A stretch of 53,313 nt of DNA, from positions 1 to 53,313 of the IMG/VR virus record IMGVR_UViG_3300009164_000103; one strand, 5' to 3'. Position 1 is the first letter of the stretch; every line of letters begins with the position of its first letter. A program made the position numbers and the translations under genes. The stretch comes from a virus. Positions 29,681 through 29,743 of this stretch are shown piece by piece. The notes beneath the pieces are model-generated. The model was not told the DNA's origin and searched no databases. It was given only the letters and a program-made list of their open reading frames with translations.

Positions 29681-29743
29681 TGGCTGTTGCCTACGCCTTA
29701 CGGCGTTTCGTCCGGGCCGGGGGACTCATCAGGGCTAGGTCCA
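29681..29743 (-). ncRNA. Type I hammerhead ribozyme A
   Basis: On the - strand, GCC-CUGAUGA is followed by stem II (GUCC..GGAC, 29710-29725), GAAA (29706-29709), stem III (CGCC-GUAA-GGCG, with a GNRA loop), then UA and GGC. The GCC before CUGAUGA pairs with the GGC after the cleavage site, and UGG with CCA further out, closing stem I around an internal loop. All core positions of the hammerhead are present, including the A-U pair next to the cleavage site. Cleavage is predicted between 29692 (A) and 29691 (G). It lies in a 107-base gap between two coding genes. Confidence 0.9.

Follow-up and report, generated by a model that had tools for sequence, protein, structure and literature searches.

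Clustered hammerhead ribozymes that flank (pro)phage genes, several in a row, were described by Perreault et al. in 2011, and it was proposed there that they cut long transcripts into single-gene mRNAs; a pseudoknot between stem I and stem II accompanies about 40% of the published phage hammerheads, and clustered examples with a layout like that of the copies treated below cleave in vitro, one cluster also doing so in E. coli (PMC3088659). The role of phage intergenic hammerheads was called open in a later review (PMC6155905). Theta (HDV-like) ribozymes, reported in gut phages in connection with suppressor tRNAs (PMC10879173), are likewise phage-encoded and self-cleaving, as the present hammerheads would be, but they have another fold, and no tRNA was found in our window.

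The window, by which we mean the whole 53,313-nt stretch analysed, comes from an uncultured phage (IMG/VR record IMGVR_UViG_3300009164_000103) with terminase, portal and head genes. It contains two predicted hammerheads, A and B, on the coding strand in intergenic gaps. The clusters of Perreault et al. also lie between phage genes, but the published ones, as that source presents them, are mainly from prophages of named bacteria, whereas A and B belong to an uncultured phage and have a stem I of 3 bp (PMC3088659). A and B are thus new members of a class for which gene-flanking clusters, the transcript-cutting idea and the pseudoknot have all been known since 2011, to go by the same report (PMC3088659).

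Anatomy and setting of the two hammerheads

Read along the minus strand, A has the order GCC-CUGAUGA-GUCC(CCCGGCCC)GGAC-GAA-ACGCC(GUAA)GGCGU-A-GGC-AACA-GCC, and B the order GCC-CUGAUGA-GUCCC(CUGGCAC)GGGAC-GAA-ACCCC..GGGGGU-C-GGC-AACA-GCC. Both possess the type I core CUGANGA plus GAAA, stems I, II and III with stem I open, the A15.1-U16.1 pair, and an H17 ahead of the cut, which is A in copy A and C in copy B. The original prediction, whose entry on A omits B, had described a full type I core in the right order on this strand, and every element is indeed in place. The features are as follows.

29735-29682, minus: predicted hammerhead ribozyme A, type I; complete core by sequence, match to covariance model R1 (see below)
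29735-29733, minus: stem I of A, 5' strand GCC
29732-29726, minus: CUGAUGA of A
29725-29722 with 29713-29710, minus: stem II of A, GUCC/GGAC
29718-29716, minus: GGC in loop II of A, predicted to pair with GCC 29684-29682 in a pseudoknot
29709-29707, minus: GAA of A
29706-29702 with 29697-29693, minus: stem III of A, ACGCC/GGCGU, loop GUAA
29692, minus: A17 of A
between A 29692 and G 29691, minus: predicted cleavage site of A, from its position in the hammerhead fold
29691-29689, minus: stem I of A, 3' strand GGC
29691-29682, minus: GGC-AACA-GCC at the start of the 3' product of A; predicted 5'-terminal hairpin after cleavage, from the fold of the product and a class-wide signal
29303-29647, minus: gene downstream of A, 114 aa; ribosome binding site GAGG at 29655-29652
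30228-30172, minus: predicted hammerhead ribozyme B, type I, architecture as in A; match to model R1
between C 30183 and G 30182, minus: predicted cleavage site of B
30212-30209, minus: UGGC in loop II of B, able to pair with GCCA 30175-30172
29755-30156, minus: middle gene, 133 aa, flanked by B and A; sole gene on the 491-nt RNA that the predicted cuts would release
30233-30538, minus: gene upstream of B, 101 aa; stop codon at 30235-30233, 7 nt before CUGAUGA of B

A occupies the gap separating genes 29755-30156 and 29303-29647, between two minus-strand cistrons as originally predicted, and B, 491 nt upstream of A, fills the 76-nt gap separating genes 30233-30538 and 29755-30156. The predicted cut of A falls 44 nt before the ATG at 29647, so that the proposed leader of 44 bases with its ribosome binding site is borne out; for B the corresponding distance to the start codon is 26 nt. 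The two cut sites bracket one small gene, which, going by these positions, A and B would release as a 491-nt RNA. Relatives of this middle gene are common in phages, the 114-aa gene downstream of A could be assigned to no family, and a PADLOC search for a defence role of the neighbouring genes gave no match. Upstream of the operon holding A and B we noticed a promoter-like TTGACA-17-TATTAT with TG before the second hexamer (32628-32600, minus), which is a lead only, as the promoter scan overall gave fewer sites than shuffled sequences.

Sequence models and covariation

A descriptor consisting of the core, a stem II of at least 3 bp, a stem III of at least 4 bp, A15.1-U16.1 and H17 matched only A and B when both strands of the whole window were scanned, against 0.4 matches per window expected by chance in order-1 random sequence, or 0.03 if stem I is to have at least 3 bp. 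The Rfam type I model RF00163 (Hammerhead_1), proposed as a check in the original prediction, would have misled: it has the stem order and core letters of A and B but expects a 6-bp stem I, and it scored A at 13.8 and B at 19.0 bits, both below the gathering threshold of 34, probably because their stem I has only 3 bp. We therefore give more attention to a model, R1, built from 48 viral hammerheads that include neither A and B nor the copies most closely related to them, and searched with filters off. It matched A with 34.9 bits (E 1.4e-9) and B with 32.1 bits (E 1.3e-8), while the next best site in the window reached 12.4 bits; the short calibration makes these E-values rough, but not the 20-bit gap. 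The 48 training hammerheads had been gathered largely by exact core patterns such as CTGATGAGTCC..GGACGAAAC.

Covariation was assessed on 74 viral matches from 33 sources, in which 96.8% of the cells of 14 core pairs are paired and both sides have changed in 12 of the 14. The score for covariation was 0.70, as compared with 0.14 in shuffled alignments and at most 0.065 with the partner slid; the alignment was fitted to the structure, which favours covariation, but not to such an extent. Within the closest subfamily, position 2 of stem II changes from U-A to G-C, and a stem III pair from G-C to C-G. Taken together, the comparative data indicate that A and B are two related type I hammerheads.

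Plain folding yielded no excess stability for the ribozyme (z about 0), the energy of a single sequence being uninformative here. In the plain fold of A the GGC-AACA-GCC hairpin is already formed and stem I opened, so part of the A transcripts may fail to cut. Most relatives have a longer stem I than the 3 bp of A and B, and the pseudoknot of A, too, amounts to only 3 bp.

Relatives and distribution

Five further copies sharing the short stem I and the AACAGCC tail were found in three viral contigs (L001, L002 with three copies, and L123), and the four of them that were inspected, from all three contigs, have the order gene end, ribozyme, ribosome binding site and ATG. Two Pseudomonas phages, UFV-P2 and BroderSalsa, have related intergenic type I hammerheads whose DNA is 85-87% identical to the 5' half of B; there, too, the stretch following stem I pairs with loop II and the product has a hairpin at its start, but stem I has 4 bp (CCCG/CGGG) as opposed to 3 bp in A and B, and the pseudoknot and the hairpin use separate letters. 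A DNA search of the region against named phages gave no near match, only short weak matches to the B core in Pseudomonas phages; pieces of A matching Streptomyces and Brevundimonas phages are short and at chance level. We also dismissed L003 as a chance match, along with 49 pattern matches in genome contigs, in which the descriptor scan gives no hammerhead, so that no host was found.

Across the viral set, placement is consistent: only 9 of 146 hammerheads lie inside a long same-strand frame, versus 51% of random places in the same loci, and the median distance from the cut to the next start codon with a Shine-Dalgarno sequence is 35 nt for these 146. Many contigs hold multiple copies, the relatives having one, three, eight (G004) or fifteen (G005). 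The last, a 39.8-kb viral contig (record of L114), has its 15 hammerhead matches on one strand between 10954 and 35328, the densest series seen.

No hammerhead occurs in 023Pt_psg01 and DSL-LC04, the two named phages closest by terminase, and an association with the family of the middle gene was rejected, as none of 80 homologous loci contains one. The element is therefore dispensable to these genes, and, as far as its distribution in sequence data goes, the predicted ribozymes are modular additions that are not tied to them.

Three pairings for the GCC tail

The GCC that follows AACA has three candidate partners, namely loop II in a pseudoknot, the upstream flank in an outer stem I helix, and, for a hairpin within the 3' product, the strand of stem I that cutting would set free. 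The original prediction had closed stem I on both sides; its inner GCC/GGC part of 3 bp stands, but the outer UGG/CCA helix does not, since, although the letters exist, complementarity between upstream and downstream flanks is at chance level across relatives.

For the pseudoknot, hammerheads with a stem I of at most 5 bp show at least 3 pairs in 60 of 82 cases (43 on average after shuffling, a value of 60 being reached in none of 300 shuffles) and at least 4 pairs in 25 of 81, compared with 6-13 in later control windows. For those with a stem I longer than 5 bp the signal is not supported. The partners exchange together, as GGC/GCC, AGC/GCU, GGUU/AACC and GUGAU/AUCAC. A could form 3 bp (GGC/GCC) and B 4 bp (UGGC/GCCA), the GCC being invariant within the A/B subfamily. 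On these comparisons, the downstream GCC of A is most likely the partner of loop II before cleavage rather than part of an outer helix.

The product hairpin was examined in 173 non-redundant viral hammerheads by matching the freed stem I strand to its complement within 24 nt. At least 4 pairs were available in 59 of the 173, versus 21-30 in four equally long later windows and 19 for direct repeats, and at least 5 pairs in 18, versus 1-5 and 1, respectively, an enrichment over the control windows from about two-fold (4 bp) to seven-fold (5 bp). Counting one hammerhead per locus, the values are 37.1 versus 13-17 for at least 4 pairs and 11.5 versus 0.3-5 for at least 5. Some families, such as L030/L063/L217/L218 (GUGGG...CCCAC) and UFV-P2 (CGGG...CCCG), use separate letters for the hairpin arm and for the pseudoknot, which makes both structures real candidates there; in A and B they share the same GCC, and the separate support for each therefore comes from the other families. 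The GGC-AACA-GCC hairpin that the original prediction had seen in the leader can indeed form, but it needs stem I and the pseudoknot open, i.e. it would exist mainly after cleavage, and the single GCC of A and B, by its letters, can serve the pseudoknot and the hairpin in turn. The predicted product of A folds into GGC(AACA)GCC followed by a palindrome hairpin (-11.9 kcal/mol, z -2.9) and that of B into the first hairpin alone. It is the comparison with the roughly 170 relatives that points to a protective hairpin at the cut end.

In L011 (at 2812) and L095 (at 1371 and 1770) a GAAA-capped hairpin is added just behind stem I (CAGGCGAAAGCCA, CAGUCGAAAGACAC), a second way to fold the start of the 3' product.

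The product hairpin appears to be undescribed so far, though its novelty is uncertain: a literature search, with subscription papers and supplements mostly outside its coverage, returned no paper on it, and the sections of Perreault et al. drawn on here make no mention of the freed stem I strand folding into a hairpin (PMC3088659).

Proposed mechanism and alternatives

In the reading that we consider highly probable, A and B cut themselves between stop codon and ribosome binding site and split the operon RNA, and their tail then switches from pseudoknot to 5' hairpin, yielding separately lasting single-gene mRNAs. The operon would be an early one, read leftward, and each of the two follows a stop codon and precedes a ribosome binding site. 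During transcription, stems I-III would fold into the core and loop II would pair with the segment just after stem I, whereupon the hammerhead would cut the polycistronic RNA. The upstream mRNA piece would carry the folded ribozyme body at its 3' end, terminating in a 2',3'-cyclic phosphate, and the downstream piece would have a 5'-OH at its beginning, which lies 44 nt ahead of the start codon for A and 26 nt for B. The freed GGC of stem I could then pair with the GCC formerly held by loop II and make a hairpin at the extreme 5' end, which would pull the two products away from each other, make religation harder and protect the end. Overall, the operon would be punctuated into separately lasting single-gene mRNAs. 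This scheme draws directly on the sequence, covariation, gene context and the statistical signals for the pseudoknot and the product hairpin; from them we infer the cleavage itself, its timing, the chemistry of the ends and the effect on mRNA life. Where RNase E cleavage depends on the 5' end, as it can in the decay of bacterial mRNA, the enzyme acts poorly on ends that are base-paired and carry no phosphate, and evasion of RNase E is the gain that we infer for this phage.

More tentatively, and with somewhat less than even confidence, we suggest that phage type I hammerheads in general may be one-way switches, in which the tail holds loop II and then captures the freed stem I strand, making the cut irreversible and the 5'-OH mRNA start resistant to decay, with a single GCC performing both tasks in the A/B subfamily. 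The product-hairpin signal turns the question of why phages have hammerheads between genes into a testable proposal, namely that cutting yields mRNAs of one gene each, folded at the 5'-OH start and at the 3' end, and the related hammerheads in two cultured Pseudomonas phages allow direct checking.

The ribozymes occur patchily (neither the closest named phages nor any of the 80 loci with a relative of the middle gene has one), and unrelated genes flank the hammerheads in different contigs; both facts would also fit modular passengers that recombination spreads between intergenic gaps and that are kept as nearly harmless, with no benefit for expression. We regard this as unlikely, because the strong covariation, the consistent stop-to-start placement and the additional hairpin and pseudoknot suggest selection beyond mere presence. 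It is still less probable that A and B are hammerheads now dead or too slow to matter, trapped by the competing hairpin: stem I has only 3 bp and minimum-energy folds do not favour the active form, but decay would be expected to hit core letters as readily as stem letters, and the two copies here and the five in three other contigs keep the whole core while their stems vary.

One gene flanked by two ribozymes with compatible ends also brings to mind a circular or ligated RNA of the middle gene, in which the 491-nt piece, with its 5'-OH and cyclic-phosphate ends, would be closed by RtcB-type ligation or reverse cleavage. This is highly improbable, since the product hairpin would work against religation, relatives have one, three, eight or fifteen copies, and no RNA ligase was found among the window proteins scanned (a scan that was not exhaustive). 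Moreover, Perreault et al. sought spliced or circular products of clustered phage hammerheads and, in the sections drawn on here, report none (PMC3088659). Punctuation of the operon into single-gene mRNAs remains our preferred reading.

A palindrome series and other features of the window

The palindrome that the original prediction had noted in the leader of A is present, but it lies outside the ribozyme as a separate element.

29661-29677: 17-bp palindrome TGTCTCACAGTGAGACA in the leader of A, one of nine copies
26765-26781, 28850-28866, 29661-29677, 30784-30800, 31527-31543, 31553-31569, 31872-31888, 31908-31924, 32484-32500: the nine copies of the 17-bp palindrome TGTCTCANNNTGAGACA

A role as part of the ribozyme was rejected, as the eight further copies lie elsewhere without one. 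Seven of the nine are identical except for the centre base, only 0.14 matches being expected by chance, and most have a stop codon on one side and the ribosome binding site of the next minus-strand gene on the other; no exact copy was found in 222 other loci. They recall the start-associated sequences of cluster K mycobacteriophages, but are symmetric, and could be a series of operators or an RNA hairpin at gene starts.

The large terminase (37695-40241, 848 aa) has its conserved halves separated by about 340 residues (residues 190-525); a Pfam scan of the protein found no intein domain, and the gap, by its position, suggests an intein or a domain insertion.

Four small helix-turn-helix proteins resembling excisionases or regulators are encoded in a row at 34726-35903 (minus); both of the two that were scanned match HTH_17 (Pfam), and the four are candidates for binding the palindromes.
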